From: a virus
Direction: 5' to 3' (one strand)
Length of the DNA stretch: 49,436 bases
IMG/VR virus record: IMGVR_UViG_3300043419_001188
Span: 1-49,436 of that record
The notes below the pieces were generated by a model, which ran no database searches, had not been told where the DNA came from, and saw only the letters and a list, made by a program, of their open reading frames with translations. Made by a program: the position numbers and the translations under genes. Positions within the stretch are counted from its first letter, which is position 1. Each line of letters starts with the position of its first letter. Positions 10,655 to 21,209 of this stretch are shown one piece after another.

Positions 10655-11896
10655 TTAAAAAGATATTTTTGGTCTTTTAAACGTACCTGTTGGTCTTTGC
10701 TGCAATACCTTACCAAGTTCCTCAAGCTTTGTCAACTTGACAGTTCCGCTATCTTTATTTATGCGATTTGCAATATATTCATTACTAGCTGTTTCGCCGT
10801 TATATTTTGCTAGCATAAGTGCTTGATTAACAAATGACTCAAAATTTGTTTGGGTAATCTCTATATTTGATTCCAAGACCCTTAAATAGATAAACAATCT
10901 TATAAACCAAGGATCACCATAATATCTATCAAATAGGCTTTCCTCAACTCCTAGAGGTCTAGATATTGTATAATGATGTTTATCACAATTATTAATTGAG
11001 TCAACTTCAACAACAGTTTCTGCTTTTTCCACATATGTATTCCAGAAAGAAATTATAATTGCTCTTAGAGCTTTTTTGTCACTTTCATACGGATGAAAAT
11101 ATAATTTTTTAAAAATATCTTCTTTGTCTATTAATCCATAAGGTTCATAGTATTTTTTCATCGCAGGAGAATCAAGATCAGCTACTATACGCCAAGGAGC
11201 GTGTTTGTCAACCATGAAACCAAATCTCTTTGCTGTTTCTAAAAATATATTAAAATTTTGATCGTTTAAGTAACGATTAATGTTTTCTGTCATTGTTGAA
11301 TCTTTATTAGTAGAATCAACACTTATTATTAATCCATTTAATAATGTATCACAATATTGGCTTTCTATAAATCCGCTTCTTGTTATAGGCCCAATTGCGA
11401 TAACTTCTGTTAAAAAATTAACTAGATGATTTGAGAAATCTTTAAAATTTCTTATTTTTATCTGCATAGAATCATCAAGGTAGGTCTTAAAGCTTCTATA
11501 AATATAGTTTATGTAATTTATATAAAGATCATCTAGTGTTTTTGCACCGCCTGAGTGTTCTATGGATGTATAAACATTCATATTTTTCTGGAGTTTGTTG
11601 ATCTCAAAGTATTTGTCATAATATTTCTTAAATTCATCAAAGGCATCAATTACAAAAAATAAATTCTTATAATATATTCCACTAGATGATTCATATGGCT
11701 TTAAGTATTCTTCTTTTGGATAAACCAATAAACCATTTGTATTTTTTAATCCATAATAACGAGCAGTTGATGCATCAAAAATATATGGATAGAAGCGCTC
11801 ATCAAATAAAATATCATTATAATATTCGGCAAGATGATATCTTTGTAGAGATGAATTGCCAATAAAATAATCTGGTGGATTTAAATTTTTTTTCAT
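10655..11896 (-). CDS. Probable baseplate/tail structural protein, 413 residues
   Basis: Not assigned to a T4 gene. Tyr/Phe/Asn-rich, largely alpha/beta in appearance, with no signal peptide or membrane helix. The segment PWRIVADLDSPAMKKYYE (about 233-250) recalls structural proteins of T4-like cyanophages from memory. It is last in the tail cluster, following the 1052-residue protein by six bases, so a baseplate role is inferred from position. The SD is weak (AGG). The polymerase gene starts 10 bases after its stop, so late and replication genes abut here with no clear terminator. Confidence 0.55.
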   Translation of the reverse strand: MKKNLNPPDYFIGNSSLQRYHLAEYYNDILFDERFYPYIFDASTARYYGLKNTNGLLVYPKEEYLKPYESSSGIYYKNLFFVIDAFDEFKKYYDKYFEINKLQKNMNVYTSIEHSGGAKTLDDLYINYINYIYRSFKTYLDDSMQIKIRNFKDFSNHLVNFLTEVIAIGPITRSGFIESQYCDTLLNGLIISVDSTNKDSTMTENINRYLNDQNFNIFLETAKRFGFMVDKHAPWRIVADLDSPAMKKYYEPYGLIDKEDIFKKLYFHPYESDKKALRAIIISFWNTYVEKAETVVEVDSINNCDKHHYTISRPLGVEESLFDRYYGDPWFIRLFIYLRVLESNIEITQTNFESFVNQALMLAKYNGETASNEYIANRINKDSGTVKLTKLEELGKVLQQRPTGTFKRPKISF

Positions 11897-11902
11897 AAAT
11901 TA

Positions 11903-14900
11903 TTACCTAGCGCTGCTTCCTTTGAAGCTGGCTTCAAAGGCTGCTGCGAAATCCTTTTCACGTATTCTGCGAAGTCTTTCTGCCTCTGCTGGGTCTATTG
12001 CTGCTGAACCAGCGCCAGTAGCAACTCCCGCACCAGTTGGTATCTCCGAACCGGGTATGCGTGGAACCAAATCTTTGCATTTATCTATTAATTTATTTGA
12101 CTCTTGAGGTCTTTTCATTAAAGAGTCGCCCCAACTTAACATATATCCACCAAGAGATAATTTTGATTCTTCGTTTGGTAGCGTTATATTATTATCTTCA
12201 AGTCTTTGGAAATGATATTCCAGTTTTGAAGAATTTACAACATACAGACCTCCAAAGCCAAATGTATTAGAAACATTCTCTGCTGCGACTACGCGTCCAA
12301 GATCATCAAATATCATTGTGTCTGGTGGTGCCACGAAAAATATACTTCCTATATCTAGGAAAAAAGATAGATAAATTTTAAAATTTGCCTTCACCGAATA
12401 CGGCAATCTAAATATCGGTAATCCACCTTGTATGTTTCCCATGGTAATATTAGGATTGTCTATCTTTGAAAAAGATAAATATTTTGATTTGATAATAGAA
12501 TCAGTTCTACTGGTTGTCTGCACTGGTATGCATGGTATCCAGTTTTCTCTAATGATATAATCTTGAAAAGAATCAGGACCAGTTTGGCTGTATCTCCTTA
12601 GCATGCTATCATAATAAGCTTTCTTGTCTGGATCTGCTGTTGTTGCTTTTAAGCCTGCTATTTTTCTATCATACGACTGATAGAAGTCAAAATATTTAAT
12701 CTCTTCCTCGCTGCCGATCATAAATATTTTTTGTAAAGTATCGGATGTTCCACTTTTTCTTAAAATATTTTGTGATTTTCTTAAATATTTTGCAAATTCT
12801 TTAAATTGAGTATTGTTTGCGGTATTAAGTCCAAAGCGCGTATATGCTATCACTTTATTAAAGTCATCACCTTCTTTATGTATCGTATGTACCATTCTTA
12901 TATTTGAATGGAAAAAATTTTCATACTCTTTAAATCCGTTAGCTGCAGAAAGAGCGTTTTTTAATAGAGACTCATAACATTCCTTTATAAAAAGATCTGT
13001 AGAGTAGAACATCTCTCTATTTGTATCAAGTATTCTTTCTTTTAAAAATTTAGTAAGATTAGATAATAGGATAGGCGTATTCATTATATTTACATATGAT
13101 GCCGTACCTAATAGCGGATCATCAATTATGAATTTTCCTCCTGTTACAATGGTTGAGTTATTTGAAGCTTCTAACATTATATTTAATAAATCGCCAAATA
13201 GAATAAACTGTATTTTTTGAATATCCCCAGAGCCTTCTTCTGGAAGCTCTAGCTTAAAGTCATTATCTAGATATTTTTTCAATATTCCAATCTTTGCGGA
13301 TGTTTCATCGTCACCTCCAACGCTTGTACCTAATAACTGTTGATTTGCCACTCCTTCAAGATTGTGTCCTGCTGCATCTGCGAGAGCTTCATTTTTTGAT
13401 ATTCTATTTGATGCTCGTTCGGCCCATTGTATGCCTAGAGCGCCGGCAGTACTTGCCACACCCTTGACACCCATGCCAAGCAAGCCGGTTGTAAAAAAAC
13501 CTAATTCTCCACTTCTACGTTTTGTTCTATTGAAAAAAGTCTCTGCCAGTTTGACATTGACCCCAGACTCTGCAACGCTTCTTATTGCTGTAATATTTTG
13601 TGGATGTCTTACTATTGTTTTTGCAACTATTATTTCATATAAATCCGAAGCCAATGCTATACCGGAAATTCCTGCTTGCACTATATTTCCCATATATGCG
13701 CTGGCAACGAACGCAGCTGTGTTTCCAAGCACACTCAAAAGATTATCTTCAAACTTTTTTAATTTATTACTAGCTTCAAAGGCATTAATTAAATTAGAAT
13801 CTATTTCTGTTTCATAAACTACACATCTAGCTAAAATATAAGTAATTAATGTTCTATCAATTCTAAAAAAAATATCAGACATTTTCCCTCTTATTACGCT
13901 TAATCTTCCTCTAATTTGCTTTATATTTTCTGGTGTGCTGCTTGCAGACCAAGCCGAAAGCGCTGCCTTGTTTGGATCATCGTCTTTTAATGATTTATAC
14001 ACTAATGCACAGCTTAAATCTTCATTTGCAAGATCCAAAACTGTTTTCCACTCAGAGTATTCCTGACTGGCTCTCTGTATATCCCATATATCTAACTCTA
14101 GATTTGTTGCTCCTGCGGCACCAGCTATTGTATTTCTTATACTTGCTGCGTCTTTTAACAAGGCATAGAGATTGTCTGATGTTCTTGGAGTCTCTGACGA
14201 TGGAGCTAGTTTACGCTCTAGATCACTTTCATAGGCAATATATGTTATAGTTAAAGTATTTTCTAAAAAATTATTAATAGGCTCAGATGATTTAAACACA
14301 TCAAATTCATGCTTTGCATATGTTAAATGATAGCTTTTATAAATCTTTGATAATCCAAGCGATATAGACTCCGAAAATCTAGCTGGGTCAATGAGATTTA
14401 ATTCTTGATTTAAGAAAATCCCGTCTGAGTCTCTTAGGCTTTTATCTTCTGACGGCAGTCCGATTGTATCAAAATATTTATAAATTAATTTAATCGGAGC
14501 ATAGTTTATTATATCAGATGGATCATTTATATTTGTTAAAACAAGACATTCTTCTAATAAGTTACCAAAATATGTAAAACCCACTTCAAGTACAACTGTA
14601 TAATTTGTTTTTAACGTATAGATGCTTTTACTATCATTTGTAATTTCTACTTTTCTAAAAAATACACGACCAGAAAGATATTTATTTGCTTCATCAATAT
14701 TAAAATAATATGTTTTATCTTTCTCGCCTGAGCCTTTCTTCCCTTGGACCACAACAGTTACGTAATGAGATAAAACATAACTAAATTCTATTGGTTCTTC
14801 TCTGTTTGAAAATAATTCAGCCGCCATTTGCTCAGATGGTGCCGGCAATCCAGAAAGCAAATGTCTTTCTTTTACTAGTAGATCCTTGCTTTCTGTCTCG

Positions 14901-15061
14901 GATAGATCAGTTTTTTTAGATGGATCAATTTTAATAACTTTTGGAGAATTATTATACGGAAGTCCATTTGCGATGGCCTCTGATATAATTTTATTCTGTA
15001 ATTTATCAGACATTGCAATTAATATTTTTTGCAATTCATTGTTTTCGTAATAATTTGGCAT
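11903..15061 (-). CDS. Large baseplate/tail structural protein, 1052 residues
   Basis: Not recognised by family. The N-terminal 400 residues look like mixed globular domains. Two small-residue-rich hydrophobic regions follow (about 425-480 and 515-550, for example FFTTGLLGMGVKGVASTAGA), unusual for a soluble baseplate protein and reminiscent of membrane-active or ejected proteins. A long helical stretch leads to a beta-rich C-terminal domain (about 860-1000) and a Gly/Ala-rich tail. It shares one base with the gp53-like gene upstream (TAATG), which indicates translational coupling. The context suggests a baseplate or hub component. Confidence 0.6.
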   Translation of the reverse strand: MPNYYENNELQKILIAMSDKLQNKIISEAIANGLPYNNSPKVIKIDPSKKTDLSETESKDLLVKERHLLSGLPAPSEQMAAELFSNREEPIEFSYVLSHYVTVVVQGKKGSGEKDKTYYFNIDEANKYLSGRVFFRKVEITNDSKSIYTLKTNYTVVLEVGFTYFGNLLEECLVLTNINDPSDIINYAPIKLIYKYFDTIGLPSEDKSLRDSDGIFLNQELNLIDPARFSESISLGLSKIYKSYHLTYAKHEFDVFKSSEPINNFLENTLTITYIAYESDLERKLAPSSETPRTSDNLYALLKDAASIRNTIAGAAGATNLELDIWDIQRASQEYSEWKTVLDLANEDLSCALVYKSLKDDDPNKAALSAWSASSTPENIKQIRGRLSVIRGKMSDIFFRIDRTLITYILARCVVYETEIDSNLINAFEASNKLKKFEDNLLSVLGNTAAFVASAYMGNIVQAGISGIALASDLYEIIVAKTIVRHPQNITAIRSVAESGVNVKLAETFFNRTKRRSGELGFFTTGLLGMGVKGVASTAGALGIQWAERASNRISKNEALADAAGHNLEGVANQQLLGTSVGGDDETSAKIGILKKYLDNDFKLELPEEGSGDIQKIQFILFGDLLNIMLEASNNSTIVTGGKFIIDDPLLGTASYVNIMNTPILLSNLTKFLKERILDTNREMFYSTDLFIKECYESLLKNALSAANGFKEYENFFHSNIRMVHTIHKEGDDFNKVIAYTRFGLNTANNTQFKEFAKYLRKSQNILRKSGTSDTLQKIFMIGSEEEIKYFDFYQSYDRKIAGLKATTADPDKKAYYDSMLRRYSQTGPDSFQDYIIRENWIPCIPVQTTSRTDSIIKSKYLSFSKIDNPNITMGNIQGGLPIFRLPYSVKANFKIYLSFFLDIGSIFFVAPPDTMIFDDLGRVVAAENVSNTFGFGGLYVVNSSKLEYHFQRLEDNNITLPNEESKLSLGGYMLSWGDSLMKRPQESNKLIDKCKDLVPRIPGSEIPTGAGVATGAGSAAIDPAEAERLRRIREKDFAAAFEASFKGSSAR

Positions 15062-15926: not shown

Positions 15927-18900
15927 CTATACGTTAACTTTTGAACCAATTGCTCTTGCTGCTATCTCTGGGACTTCTCTTAGCGCTTCTTTCTTAACTA
16001 GGTCTGCAACAGTATCTAGTTCCTTATCGCCTATTCTAATCTTAAAGAAGTTATTTGACGCAGGACTTTGAGCGTTAAATGACAACATCTCTTTAAATTC
16101 CTGCATAAAGCTCTTTTTATTTTCTGTCTTGGAATTTGTTAATTCTGTTGTTGTCATTTTATTTGTCGCAGTAAGTGTTTCTACGCTTGCCTGCATTCTT
16201 GTAGCTGTGCCGTTTGGTGAAAAATAATTAGAAATTGTTGTAATTGGCGAAGAAATAGCGCCTCCAAAAGAAGAAAGCGCTGTTTGCATCGCAGAAGAGA
16301 TACCTGTACCAATATTTCCAAGCATACCACCTAGATTTAGATTAGATAATGCGTTTAATCCGTTTGCAATAGCGCCACCGCTTTTTGCTAATATTACTTT
16401 ATCGTTTGGATCGCCACTAATTTTTTGTGTTGCGCCATTTGGCGCAGTAACGCTTACATTTGTACGACCGTTGTCTGCCAAGTTTTTAATATTATAATTT
16501 GTAGATAGTTTTGTTATTGAACTTGGAACAACCTCGGCATCATCTGCCTTTATTGTTTCATCTTGCATTACGGACTGTTCTGCTTCTGAGGCTTTTTTAC
16601 CAAGTGAACCAAGGACTGATGTTGCAAGCATTGCGCCCATCATCCAACCACCAGCAGATCCCATCATGGATTTAAAACTACTTGGCTTTGCAAGTCCTGG
16701 GCCTATCACTCCTCTCGCGTCAACTGATATGTTTTTAGCTGCATTTGCTGTCATACCAAGAGTCACATTTAATTGTTGTAGCTGCGCTGTTATTGCTTTA
16801 AGTTCCGCGCTCATTACTCCAAAAGATGCTGTAACTCTATTTACGCTATTCACTGCCGATGTTGCAAATCTATTCCATGCATAAACTGCTAAAGTAACTA
16901 ATCCGCCCAATCCTAGTGCCAAAGTACCAGTTGGACTCATGTGCTTGTTTAGGTAATTAACAACAGACGCAAGGCCAGAGAAGATATCTAAAATAGGGGT
17001 TAAGGCTATTTTCATATTATCTAATGCCGCTGCTAGCTTCTCTTGAGCTGATACGCTCTCTGCTCGTTTTTTAGCTAATTCTTCTTCGCTAGCGGCAGCT
17101 TGTTCAAGTTTCGCTTGGACATCGCCTAGATTTTCTGAAAGTTTATAGAATGATGCAGCTTTTGTTAAATCACCACCAAAAGGCTCTGCAAGTAATTGTT
17201 TAAAACCGCGATTTAGGTTTGCAAATTCAACGCCAGATTCTTTTGCTGCGCGTAATACTGTCATAATCCGCTCAGTTGGACTTTCAGCCATTGCCATCTC
17301 TTGAAGATTAATTGACATACCTCCAAGGGCAGCATTTAGCTTAGATGTCATCTCTGCTGCGCCTTCAAGTGTATTAAATTTATCCGAGAAGGATGCAAAA
17401 TCAGTTGCAGACATAACATTATTTGTTAGTTGCGCTAAGCCGTTTAATTCTTTAAATACCGCAACTGCCTCTTTTGCATAACCGGTTATTAGATTTATAC
17501 TCTGTTTAAATTCAGACGCATATTTAGCAACATTAACTCCTAATCCAAGAGCGTCTTTTGATAGCTGTTCAAATTGTTCACGGGCTGCCTGTATGGACAT
17601 TTTTGTTGTACCCATGAATATCTTTGTAACTTCACCATATTGTTCTTCGGATACTCCCAGTGCCTTAAATGCTGCTGCGCTTGAAGCTAATGCCAGTCTT
17701 TGCTTGTCTGTTAGATTATTAAAGTTACCGATTGTATTTGATAGGGCGGCATATGAATTACCTAATTCTTTTAAGGTAACTCCATATGCTGCAAGCTGTG
17801 GCATAGAGTTTTCGCGGATACCAAATACATCACCTTTTATGACACCAGGATTTGTTACAGCCCTATTAAAAGCTTCTCCCTGCCCGCCGGTCATCTTGTT
17901 TACGTCTGCGCCTATTTTATTAAACAGGAATGTACTTTTAACAACGCGTTCATCTAAAAAGTTAAATACACGGTTAATTGCACCTTCCCAATCTATAAAA
18001 GAATCTTTAAGCGCACCAACTGCGCCCTTGAGCATACTAAACCCGTCATGCGCCTTGCTAAAATTTAAACTTGATAATAATACAGAAGAAAATAAATTAG
18101 ACTTTGAAGATGCCATCGCCAAAGAATCAGCATACGCCGACATTCCTGCCGCCATATGTTTCGTTGCTCTACCTGATACTTCTGCATTTTCTTCAACGCT
18201 TTTTTGCGCTTCATTAAGAATCTTTAATTCTTCATTTGTGCGATTAATTTGCGTTGTAAGATTACCATATGCAGCTGCACGTGCTGCTACCGAAGAAACA
18301 ATTAAGTCTTTATCGGCTATAACTGCTTCCTGCGTTAGCTTAAGTTCTTTTAGGACTTTATTAAGCTGCTCTGCGCTTAATTTTTCATCATCCTTTACGC
18401 CTGCAACTCTTGCTGCATCTTGTAAGAGGGCTTTAATTGGTCCATCTGAAAGATTCTTAATTGCCGATCCGTTGTCAATTATGTTCTTTTTGATAATTTC
18501 AAGATATTTTGCTTGATTTTCTGCAAAATTAGCCGTGATTTTATCGTCCGTCATTAACTGCTTTGAATAATCCGCCAGCGCCCGCTTTGCGGCATCTAGG
18601 GCTGGTCCTGTTGCTTCGGAAACTTGCTTTATTAGGGTAAAATATTGCTTTGCTTCAACTTCATTTAGTTTAAAAAAACCACTTAGTGATTGTGCAAGTT
18701 CTGCTTGTAATTTTTTTTGATTTTGAACTTGCCCTTCTAATCTTGCTTTTGTTTCATCGTGTATTTTTTTCATTGCAGCAGAAAGAGTTGGCAATTCCTC
18801 TTTCAGCGTATTTATCTCCATAATTAAATTAAATTTGGCAGCATTAAATTCTTCACGGATTTGGTCAATTGTCTTACCGGCAGTAGCAATGTTATTTGCC

Positions 18901-18962
18901 GATACCTGTTTTTCCATCGCAGTAATTCTTGCCATAACTTCACTTATATTTGGATCCGCCAT
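15927..18962 (-). CDS. Tail tape measure protein
   Basis: 1011 residues, longest gene of the tail cluster after the 1052-residue one. Long coiled-coil and helical repeats fill the first 300 residues (MEKQVSANN..., many Lys/Glu/Ala heptads). Ala-rich helices follow, then hydrophobic segments near residues 665-700 (TLALGLGGLVTLAVYAW) and 745-790. This architecture, and the position downstream of the tube and gp26/gp51-like genes, are typical of tape measure proteins, which set tail length and are ejected with the DNA. T4 gp29 is shorter (590), so this tail should be longer. GAGGG precedes the ATG, with a terminator and a CTAATTAT element upstream. Confidence 0.75.
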   Translation of the reverse strand: MADPNISEVMARITAMEKQVSANNIATAGKTIDQIREEFNAAKFNLIMEINTLKEELPTLSAAMKKIHDETKARLEGQVQNQKKLQAELAQSLSGFFKLNEVEAKQYFTLIKQVSEATGPALDAAKRALADYSKQLMTDDKITANFAENQAKYLEIIKKNIIDNGSAIKNLSDGPIKALLQDAARVAGVKDDEKLSAEQLNKVLKELKLTQEAVIADKDLIVSSVAARAAAYGNLTTQINRTNEELKILNEAQKSVEENAEVSGRATKHMAAGMSAYADSLAMASSKSNLFSSVLLSSLNFSKAHDGFSMLKGAVGALKDSFIDWEGAINRVFNFLDERVVKSTFLFNKIGADVNKMTGGQGEAFNRAVTNPGVIKGDVFGIRENSMPQLAAYGVTLKELGNSYAALSNTIGNFNNLTDKQRLALASSAAAFKALGVSEEQYGEVTKIFMGTTKMSIQAAREQFEQLSKDALGLGVNVAKYASEFKQSINLITGYAKEAVAVFKELNGLAQLTNNVMSATDFASFSDKFNTLEGAAEMTSKLNAALGGMSINLQEMAMAESPTERIMTVLRAAKESGVEFANLNRGFKQLLAEPFGGDLTKAASFYKLSENLGDVQAKLEQAAASEEELAKKRAESVSAQEKLAAALDNMKIALTPILDIFSGLASVVNYLNKHMSPTGTLALGLGGLVTLAVYAWNRFATSAVNSVNRVTASFGVMSAELKAITAQLQQLNVTLGMTANAAKNISVDARGVIGPGLAKPSSFKSMMGSAGGWMMGAMLATSVLGSLGKKASEAEQSVMQDETIKADDAEVVPSSITKLSTNYNIKNLADNGRTNVSVTAPNGATQKISGDPNDKVILAKSGGAIANGLNALSNLNLGGMLGNIGTGISSAMQTALSSFGGAISSPITTISNYFSPNGTATRMQASVETLTATNKMTTTELTNSKTENKKSFMQEFKEMLSFNAQSPASNNFFKIRIGDKELDTVADLVKKEALREVPEIAARAIGSKVNV

Positions 18963-19022: not shown

Positions 19023-19226
19023 CTATTTCCTATTTGCTTCGTTTTCTTCTTTAATTTGTTTTGAGAGACGCTCTACAAACCATTTCCTTAAGCCTATTGG
19101 GAGATTGTATATTTCTATAAAAGACCACATTCCATGATACTTGAGGTCAAACATTTGATTATACACAGACTCCATATAATCATCACTTAGGCCAAAAAAA
19201 TTCCTGTGTAAAAGGAACCTCCACAT
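19023..19226 (-). CDS. 51: gp51-like tail assembly protein, probably frameshift-expressed
   Basis: 67 codons from the first ATG. The conserved-looking part (WSFIEIYNLPIGLRKWFVER) resembles T4 gp51-type baseplate hub assembly proteins. It overlaps the 3' end of the gp26-like gene in the +1 frame. Neither the ATG at 19226 nor internal Met codons has an SD, unlike almost every other gene here. A run of seven T lies in the overlap, in codons EFF of the upstream frame. A +1 or -2 shift there would give a fusion of about 348 residues containing the last 56 of this frame. The tape measure gene follows, the position of lambda G/GT-type chaperones. Confidence 0.6.
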   Translation of the reverse strand: MWRFLLHRNFFGLSDDYMESVYNQMFDLKYHGMWSFIEIYNLPIGLRKWFVERLSKQIKEENEANRK

Positions 19227-20081: not shown

Positions 20082-20624
20082 CTATTGGGTTAGTGTTGCC
20101 CAATCATATGCTATTGTCATTTCAATTACTACAGGTGCATCGGACGAGTAATCTAGTGTATCATACTTTATATCCGTTATTAGTGCATTTTTCAAAGACC
20201 AAATTTCTTGCTTTGGCTCGGTTTTATCGCCACTACCAGACCCAAGCTGAATTATATTTAAACCTGTCAATTTATATCTATCTTTGAAGTGATAAGTGGA
20301 AACTATTTCATTTCCTGTGTCTTCGCTATATGGTGGCTTGTATCCAAAGCCAGTTAACATAGAATGTACATTTGTTGCCACACCTTTTTCTATAACATCA
20401 TATAGCGATAAGCGGATAGGATTCCAGCTTATACGCGTTGGAAATTTAAATTCATGGCTATAAAGATACTTATAGCTTGTTGTTTTAACTGTGTATGATG
20501 GCTTATCTACGGACTTAGCGAAAAATACTTTATTATCGCCTTGGCCCTTTAAAAGCTCACCCTTAAATTCAACTTTCCATTTATGTTTTTGAGAAATGTC
20601 TGGACTGCTTGACCAAAATGACAA
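20082..20624 (-). CDS. Second tail tube-like protein (tube paralogue)
   Basis: 180 residues. It begins MSFWSS and ends with a DWA-type strand, as does the adjacent 173-residue tube protein. The two also align across KVEFKG/KVKFKG and the SLKNALIT/TLNNAFIT region, so they are paralogues. One is likely the main tube and the other a minor tube-like part such as an initiator. This copy is the better candidate for the minor role: it starts with TTG at 20624, and its start codon and part of its SD (AGGAG) lie in the 3' arm of a long hairpin (20623-20668). It is followed by the gp26-like gene. Confidence 0.75.
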   Translation of the reverse strand: MSFWSSSPDISQKHKWKVEFKGELLKGQGDNKVFFAKSVDKPSYTVKTTSYKYLYSHEFKFPTRISWNPIRLSLYDVIEKGVATNVHSMLTGFGYKPPYSEDTGNEIVSTYHFKDRYKLTGLNIIQLGSGSGDKTEPKQEIWSLKNALITDIKYDTLDYSSDAPVVIEMTIAYDWATLTQ

Positions 20625-20668
20625 AGCCGCGACTCCTATAGTTTTATACTATAAATAGTCGCGGCTTT
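20623..20668 (-). promoter_or_regulatory. Hairpin covering the start of the second tube gene
   Basis: A perfect 11-base-pair stem (AAAGCCGCGAC/GTCGCGGCTTT) with a 24-base loop, in which TATAG/CTATA can pair further. The 3' arm includes the first two bases of the TTG start and the last G of the SD. The loop contains CTATTTAT. It could attenuate transcription, hide the ribosome site, or both. Confidence 0.65.
20651..20658 (-). promoter_or_regulatory. CTATTTAT element before second tube gene
   Basis: Sense-strand CTATTTAT, 26 bases before the TTG start, within the hairpin region at 20623-20668. Member of the recurrent CTAWTTAT set. Confidence 0.4.
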
Positions 20669-20687
20669 ATTTATTTAAAGGCTTTTA

Positions 20688-21209
20688 TTATTCGTATGAA
20701 GCCCAGTCGTACTTTAATGTAAATTCTGCTGTCGCAAAACCTTCCTGTCCGTAGTCAAATCCAGTTAAACCTGCAGTTGTAATAAAAGCATTGTTTAATG
20801 TATATGTTTCTGCTGTAGTGCCATCTGTTTTTAGTGGTTCAACTTTAACGGTTGTTATAATTGCTCCATTTTTAGAGATAGTACTAAAACCTGTTCCGGC
20901 TGCTGCATTTACGTTATTTGGAAGGATAAATCCGGCTGCTGTAAGGTATTTATATGCTTGTGAGGCCATATTTTCATTTTTGTCAACACCATCAATAAAT
21001 TTAATCTTGATGTCGTTCCATGTGACTTTACCTGGATAGTTAAAACTCTTATCAAGAAAGTCAATTTTTGTATTTCCACTAACTGTATAAATTGGACGCT
21101 CTGCTGATTGTGCAAGATAAACAGGTGCTTCTGCGCCGGCTCCTTTAAATTTTACCTTGAATCTAAATTGGCGCTTTGGGTCTAGGCTTGGGCTACTCCA
21201 AAAACTCAT
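20688..21209 (-). CDS. 19: Tail tube protein, gp19-like
   Basis: 173 residues, mostly beta, N-terminus MSFWSSPSLDPKRQFRFKV and C-terminus ending in YDWASYE. Length and position right after the sheath gene match T4 gp19 (163), which polymerises into the hexameric-ring tube inside the sheath. AGGAG lies before an ATG, unlike the TTG-started paralogue next to it, so this is likely the abundant tube subunit. It follows the sheath gene by 18 bases. Confidence 0.8.
   Translation of the reverse strand: MSFWSSPSLDPKRQFRFKVKFKGAGAEAPVYLAQSAERPIYTVSGNTKIDFLDKSFNYPGKVTWNDIKIKFIDGVDKNENMASQAYKYLTAAGFILPNNVNAAAGTGFSTISKNGAIITTVKVEPLKTDGTTAETYTLNNAFITTAGLTGFDYGQEGFATAEFTLKYDWASYE

Follow-up and report, generated by a model that had tools for sequence, protein, structure and literature searches.

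A probable +1 ribosomal frameshift in a candidate tail assembly chaperone gene related to T4 gp26 and gp51

Chaperone genes of T4-like phages were reportedly identified as separate short and long genes by Vladimirov, Gautam and Davidson in 2022 (Virology 566:9-15). A passage summarizing the 2022 work states that some T4-like phages have one short and one longer chaperone gene (PMC10885494), so that the concept of gp26 and gp51 as a short and a long chaperone is already known and published. Further, conservation of G–T frameshifting is wide, T4 being the exception, and its direction is −1, −2 or +1 depending on the phage (Atkins et al. 2016, PMC5009743); poly-T −1 sites are described in the TAC-N genes of T4-like phages (PMC12846349). 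Here we analyse a 49,436-nt stretch of viral DNA (IMG/VR record IMGVR_UViG_3300043419_001188, positions 1 to 49,436; hereafter the window). Comparison of its sequence with those of related phages makes it highly likely that it carries a single-gene tail assembly chaperone locus, encoding a 295-aa short form and, through a +1 shift, a 348-aa long form. The 2022 T4-like paper aside, a +1 class in the PF12322 family and the element upstream of its slip site look new, as the literature that we searched does not describe them.

Layout of the locus and identity of its products

The locus follows a sheath gene and two tail-tube-like genes and precedes a 1011-aa ORF (Table 1). An initial annotation had claimed that a gp51-like frame overlaps the end of the gp26-like gene, with a run of seven T (T7) just before the zero-frame stop, and this is confirmed, with the run at 19200-19194 and the stop at 19185-19183. 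In the zero frame, the 3′ end of the gene reads CAG GAA TTT TTT TGG CCT AAG TGA TGA. The −1 frame closes at once (TAA within GCC TAA), whereas skipping one base at T7 gives a computed translation of 348 residues, the size that had been foreseen for the fusion. Joining the two frames is possible only within 23 nt, from −8 to +15 around T7, bounded by the last +1-frame stop upstream and by the first zero-frame stop.

Table 1. Features of the locus in window coordinates
Feature	Position	Strand	Basis
gp26-like gene, short form (TAC-N / G-like), 295 aa	19183..20070	minus	PF12322, phrog_150, AF2 model
+1-frame extension (T-like, gp51 C-terminus homologue), GGC to stop	19023..19193	minus	pN/pS and profile match
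Second ORF, 67 codons from ATG 19226, +1 frame relative to gp26-like gene	19023-19226	minus	
Probable frameshift site TTT TTT TGG: P-site TTT 19197-19195, A-site TGG 19194-19192	19192..19200	minus	Unchanged across 44 distinct sites
TGGCCT, coding in two frames: Trp-Pro (zero) and Gly-Leu (+1)	19189..19194	minus	Both readings kept, window and immuto-like families
TTCCT-TTTACAC-AGGAA directly 5′ of T7, candidate hairpin and/or SD-like AGGA	19201..19217	minus	Covariation in relatives
GGAGG with conserved silent G	19218..19222	minus	Glu codon GAG in 42/43, synonymous-difference ratio 0.13
1011-aa ORF in tape-measure position, 60 nt past +1-frame stop	15927..18962	minus	Position and length only
Tail tube protein, upstream of gp26-like gene	20082..20624	minus	phrog_4542 tail tube, E=2e-21

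With two overlapping frames and a conserved slip site placed between the tail tube gene and the tape-measure position, the proposed arrangement of the G/GT type stands. The tape measure gene that was said to follow stands in part: an ORF of 1011 aa occupies that position, but PHROG and Pfam give it no significant match and BLASTP none to the tape measure of immuto, and it is a candidate by position and length only. The two tail-tube-like genes adjoin each other (20082-21209, 180 and 173 aa), share the start MSFWSS and are probably a duplication. In the baseplate region, two ORFs, 11903-15061 (1052 aa) and 10655-11896 (413 aa), are without any PHROG match.

The gp26-like protein matches PF12322 (T4_baseplate) with 43.3 bits against a curated cut-off of 24.5 (E=4.5e-11) and phrog_150 with E=5e-14, both of them the T4 gp26 family. 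Taken alone, the second frame matches phrog_634, the baseplate hub assembly catalyst T4 gp51, at only E=0.1; its gp51-like identity, weak by itself, comes from the profile alignments of relatives given below. Folded with AF2 (pLDDT 89), the short form resembles predicted models of viral gp26 or baseplate hub proteins, for example with E=5e-16 for that of SP-15 and E=2e-6 for Aeromonas phage 25 gp26; the fused protein, modelled by AF2 from its single sequence, reached a pLDDT of 33. The gp26-like model has no PDB match at E<0.001, nor is there a PDB relative by sequence. Because the fold matches no solved structure, the case for a putative chaperone is built on homology and gene position, which make this role of the locus probable.

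Conservation of the slip site, the +1 frame and the upstream element

Relatives of the gp26-like gene are encoded at 72 IMG/VR loci, and 70 of these, together with Microcystis phage Mel-JY01, provide 44 distinct site sequences. All 44 keep TTTTTTTGGCCT (T7GGCCT) along with the +1 offset, and in all 44 the zero-frame stop lies one or two codons past CCT; that related phages should keep both run and offset, as the initial annotation had asked of an alignment, is thus what we find. The 12-mer occurs once in the window against 0.06 expected. T7 alone is not rare there (38 occurrences, overlapping ones counted, both strands), and therefore the weight of the slip-site evidence lies in conservation. 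Among 43 relatives, neither Phe codon of the T run has a single synonymous difference in 903 pairs, compared with 318 expected for each from the two-fold codons of the gene, while two other nearby Phe columns differ synonymously in 20-22% of pairs. The Pro codon of CCT is also invariant, because CCT encodes Leu in the +1 frame as well. Since TGGCCT is conserved in both of its readings, the shift is placed at or before TGG. At this point the +1 codon is open to re-pairing by the P-site tRNA, which would move from TTT to TTT in the window family and from CTT to TTT in most others. Two further candidate signals were rejected: the invariance of GGCCT, for which the dual coding already accounts, and TGG as a very rare codon, since at 6.7 per 1000 (rank 25) it is uncommon without being one of the rarest. 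Downstream of the slip, pN/pS is 0.26 in the +1 frame compared with 0.88 and 1.75 in the other frames, which indicates that the extension is under purifying selection in the +1 reading only.

A second family comprises 80 loci related to Flavobacterium phage immuto; the +1 offset is present in all 57 of their distinct sites and TGG CCT in nearly all. Its sites read TTT TTT TGG CCT, TTT CTT TGG CCT, TTT CTA TGG CCT (three) and TTT CTT TAC CCT (one). Although re-pairing of the P-site tRNA with TAT fails at the three CTA TGG sites (loci L190, L201 and L212), the +1 frame is kept there; LR756508 (L075 4740-4777), with TTT CTA TTC, likewise keeps the +1 frame with a P-site tRNA for which re-pairing with the +1 codon is impossible. 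The offset is also +1 in Bacillus SP-15, Listeria LIS04 and Streptococcus GXN1 (L080, L079 and L078), whose gp26 stop is preceded by NCC CGA TTY, perhaps another kind of +1 site where CGA is the waiting codon. In current annotations, the +1 extension of immuto phages is merely a 36-aa hypothetical protein (L076 4833-4943), and nothing is annotated at that of GXN1 or LIS04.

The pairing TTCCN...NGGA that adjoins T7 has a covariation score of 0.242 in relatives, compared with 0.127 for shuffled alignments (0/500) and at most 0.113 when slid. Its pair 18-26 is GC in 29, UA in 8 and AU in 1, and its pair 19-25 is CG in 17, UA in 11 and UG in 2. This covariation is suggestive of structure and short of proof, as kinship alone can beat shuffles. 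The hairpin is stronger in relatives than in the window, where it is weak (minimum free energy −2.5 kcal/mol, z 0.43, no better than shuffles). The AGGA of the window, 4 nt before the P-site TTT, could act as a Shine–Dalgarno sequence (SD); most relatives share only GGA. In the immuto-like family, a separate hairpin, CCC-AATT-GGG, lies 6 nt upstream and covaries at silent positions (0.195 versus 0.099, 1/500), and strong hairpins unrelated to these lie 6 nt upstream in Mel-JY01 (z −4.1) and 3 nt upstream in LR756508 (z −2.1). When a hairpin upstream refolds next to the E site of 70S ribosomes, it stimulates +1 and hinders −1 shifting (PMC6321510); this stimulator was studied in engineered constructs, and its +1 stimulation at CUUUGA was seen only without RF2 (PMC6321510). 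That the upstream element stimulates the +1 shift is a good hypothesis on these comparisons.

Farther upstream, GGAGG lies 20 nt from the P-site codon, a spacing too long for an ordinary SD unless the hairpin folds out. As a start signal for a separate gp51-like gene it was rejected, there being no start at a fitting distance. Genes of the window do use SD sequences (22 of 37, background 8%).

Alternative explanations and a proposed mechanism

The same frame, with one extra Phe, would be reached by a −2 ribosomal frameshift on the T run, a direction used by phage Mu (PMC5009743), and T7 would permit re-pairing after such a slip. The immuto-like TTT CTT TGG sites speak against it: without a T run, they keep the +1 frame, and their CTT TGG allows the +1 slip of CTT to TTT, known from prfB, yet blocks re-pairing at −2. 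Hairpins of the type found upstream, moreover, favour forward and hinder backward slips (PMC6321510). We therefore consider a −2 shift improbable; where the initial annotation had offered a +1 (or −2) programmed shift, comparison strongly supports the +1 and disfavours the −2.

A separate short gp51-like gene, expressed by internal initiation or termination-reinitiation, would dispense with frameshifting altogether. Within the window family, 22 of the 44 relatives have an ATG at +25 and 16 have a +1-frame start with a 4-nt SD core before it, and cyanophages have an ATG a few nucleotides from the gp26 stop and a separately annotated gp51. No start is conserved, however, with ATG missing from 8/44 and ATG, GTG and TTG all missing from 1/44. 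Such a gene would also leave the invariant silent TTT TTT unexplained, and the homologous C-terminus in T4 is fused in frame to a gp26-like domain, all of which makes this reading very improbable. The invariant length of the homopolymer would suit transcriptional slippage, by which some mRNAs would be one T short, but a run of seven is short for such slippage in bacteria, and homologous immuto-like sites keep the frame with no more than three T in a row; we give it scarcely any credence. Nothing beyond the shortness of the ORF suggests that the overlap is a decaying or misassembled gene without function, a reading of negligible probability that comparison refutes, as about 100 distinct contigs conserve the overlap under purifying selection.

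A ribosomal shift into the +1 frame at the T7 site is, by contrast with these alternatives, very probable. In what would be a contractile-tailed phage with a T4-type baseplate, the majority of ribosomes would terminate at TGA and release a short form of 295 aa. The remaining minority, while TTT occupies their P site and TGG their A site, would slip one base forward, read GGC and produce a long form of 348 aa that would bear a homologue of the gp51 C-terminus of T4. Slipping would be aided by the T run, by TGG as a waiting codon and by the upstream element touching the E site, acting as a hairpin that refolds behind the ribosome and/or as an SD-like AGGA. Conservation, frame, selection, homology and copy number are what the comparison shows, and from it we infer the occurrence and efficiency of the shift, the role of each signal and the chaperone function. 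By analogy with lambda G/GT, coating of the tape measure protein may fall to the short form, and recruitment of tail tube subunits to the long form. More tentatively, and with some doubt on our part, these sites may represent a natural phage class of +1 shifting on a sense A-site codon (TTT/CTT TGG), in which hairpin refolding at the E site replaces the SD, across environmental, Flavobacterium and Microcystis phages and in some (CTA TGG) without re-pairing.

Relatives with a −1 shift or two genes, and comparison with known systems

In a cyanophage group (80 loci, L090-L169, 52 distinct sites), the second frame is instead −1, at T TTT TTC in 52/52. The same −1 heptamer is present in phiAS5, Rhizobium IC12, Agrobacterium Atu_ph07, Pseudomonas Paride, LR756511 and the locus L072, and RL38J1 has T TTT TTG. 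The cyanophage-like gp26 ends read NNT TTT TTC in all 52, and in most GGAGG (TTG GAG GGN) lies about 10 nt upstream, a dnaX-like arrangement for −1 stimulation. In the cyanophage-like Sf-FS3, gp51 is annotated as a separate gene.

Profiles of the +1 fusion and the cyanophage −1 fusion align end to end (probability 99.8, E=3.5e-30), with FF on FF at the junctions; the two extensions alone align with probability 93 (E=3e-7), a reversed control scoring 0.3. The match between the cyanophage −1 fusion and T4 gp51 likewise spans the two from end to end (98.95, E=1e-17). Compared directly by profile, the window fusion and T4 gp51 give no significant match (probability 7.8), so the link between them runs through the cyanophages. 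T4 gp26 and gp51 align as paralogues (99.2, E=3e-19), and each matches PF12322 over its full length. The initial annotation had explained the two T4 proteins as the halves of such a chaperone, a view that these matches overturn: because the +1 fusion aligns with the −1 fusion and the −1 fusion with gp51, gp51 is, as read from the alignments, the complete long form and gp26 a short-form paralogue.

Copy number also speaks for the frameshift: among complete phage genomes where the PF12322 profile finds the family, which leaves out Mel-JY01 and immuto, all nine frameshifting phages have one PF12322 gene, and T4 and RB43 have two. In RB43, the long (gp51) and then the short (gp26) paralogue lie in tandem with an 8-nt overlap (L089 3001-4294), unlike the divergent gp26 and gp51 genes of T4. 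Unlike both, phiAS5 (Straboviridae, Chrysonvirus; L085 2935-3884) has a single PF12322 gene with a T TTT TTC −1 site. In a tree of the shared domain, the +1 rows cluster (one or two origins) and the duplicated rows form one clade (SH-aLRT 85) beside phiAS5, with long branches that leave deep joins unsure. One homologous gene family has three apparent routes to the same protein pair, −1 shifting, +1 shifting and gene duplication, so that the evolution of recoding can be tested within one system. The +1 extension would also account for a gene that annotations of these phages usually miss or get wrong, and the family provides compact +1 sites together with a candidate stimulator, the upstream hairpin.

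The window locus and T4-like gp26/gp51 belong to the same homologous family, with short and long forms that have a common N-terminal domain; T4 and RB43 encode them as two paralogous genes, and here one gene and a +1 shift would suffice. The cyanophage fusion product is homologous too, yet its shift has the opposite direction (−1) and a different slip heptamer. With lambda G/GT and P2 E/E′, the likeness is one of arrangement, short and frameshift-extended forms encoded before the tape measure gene, and those systems shift by −1 rather than +1. The tail assembly chaperones of Vandenendeviridae and Andersonviridae, also myoviruses, likewise have a short and a long form and a poly-T slip site, GTTTTT, but shift by −1 (PMC12846349). 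Listeria phage PSA and the archaeal virus HSTV-2 use +1 shifts in structural or tail genes of tailed viruses (PMC5009743), a likeness of direction and class of gene. At the level of the site itself, prfB (CTT TGA with an SD) likewise has a T right after its slip codon, which lets the P-site tRNA advance one base, and an SD-like or duplex element just upstream; the immuto-like CTT TGG is nearly identical to CTT TGA. The prfB SD lies about 3 nt from the P-site codon and the window AGGA, a candidate SD, at 4 nt, and whereas prfB is autoregulated and has a stop codon in the A site, the window has the sense codon TGG there, without autoregulation.
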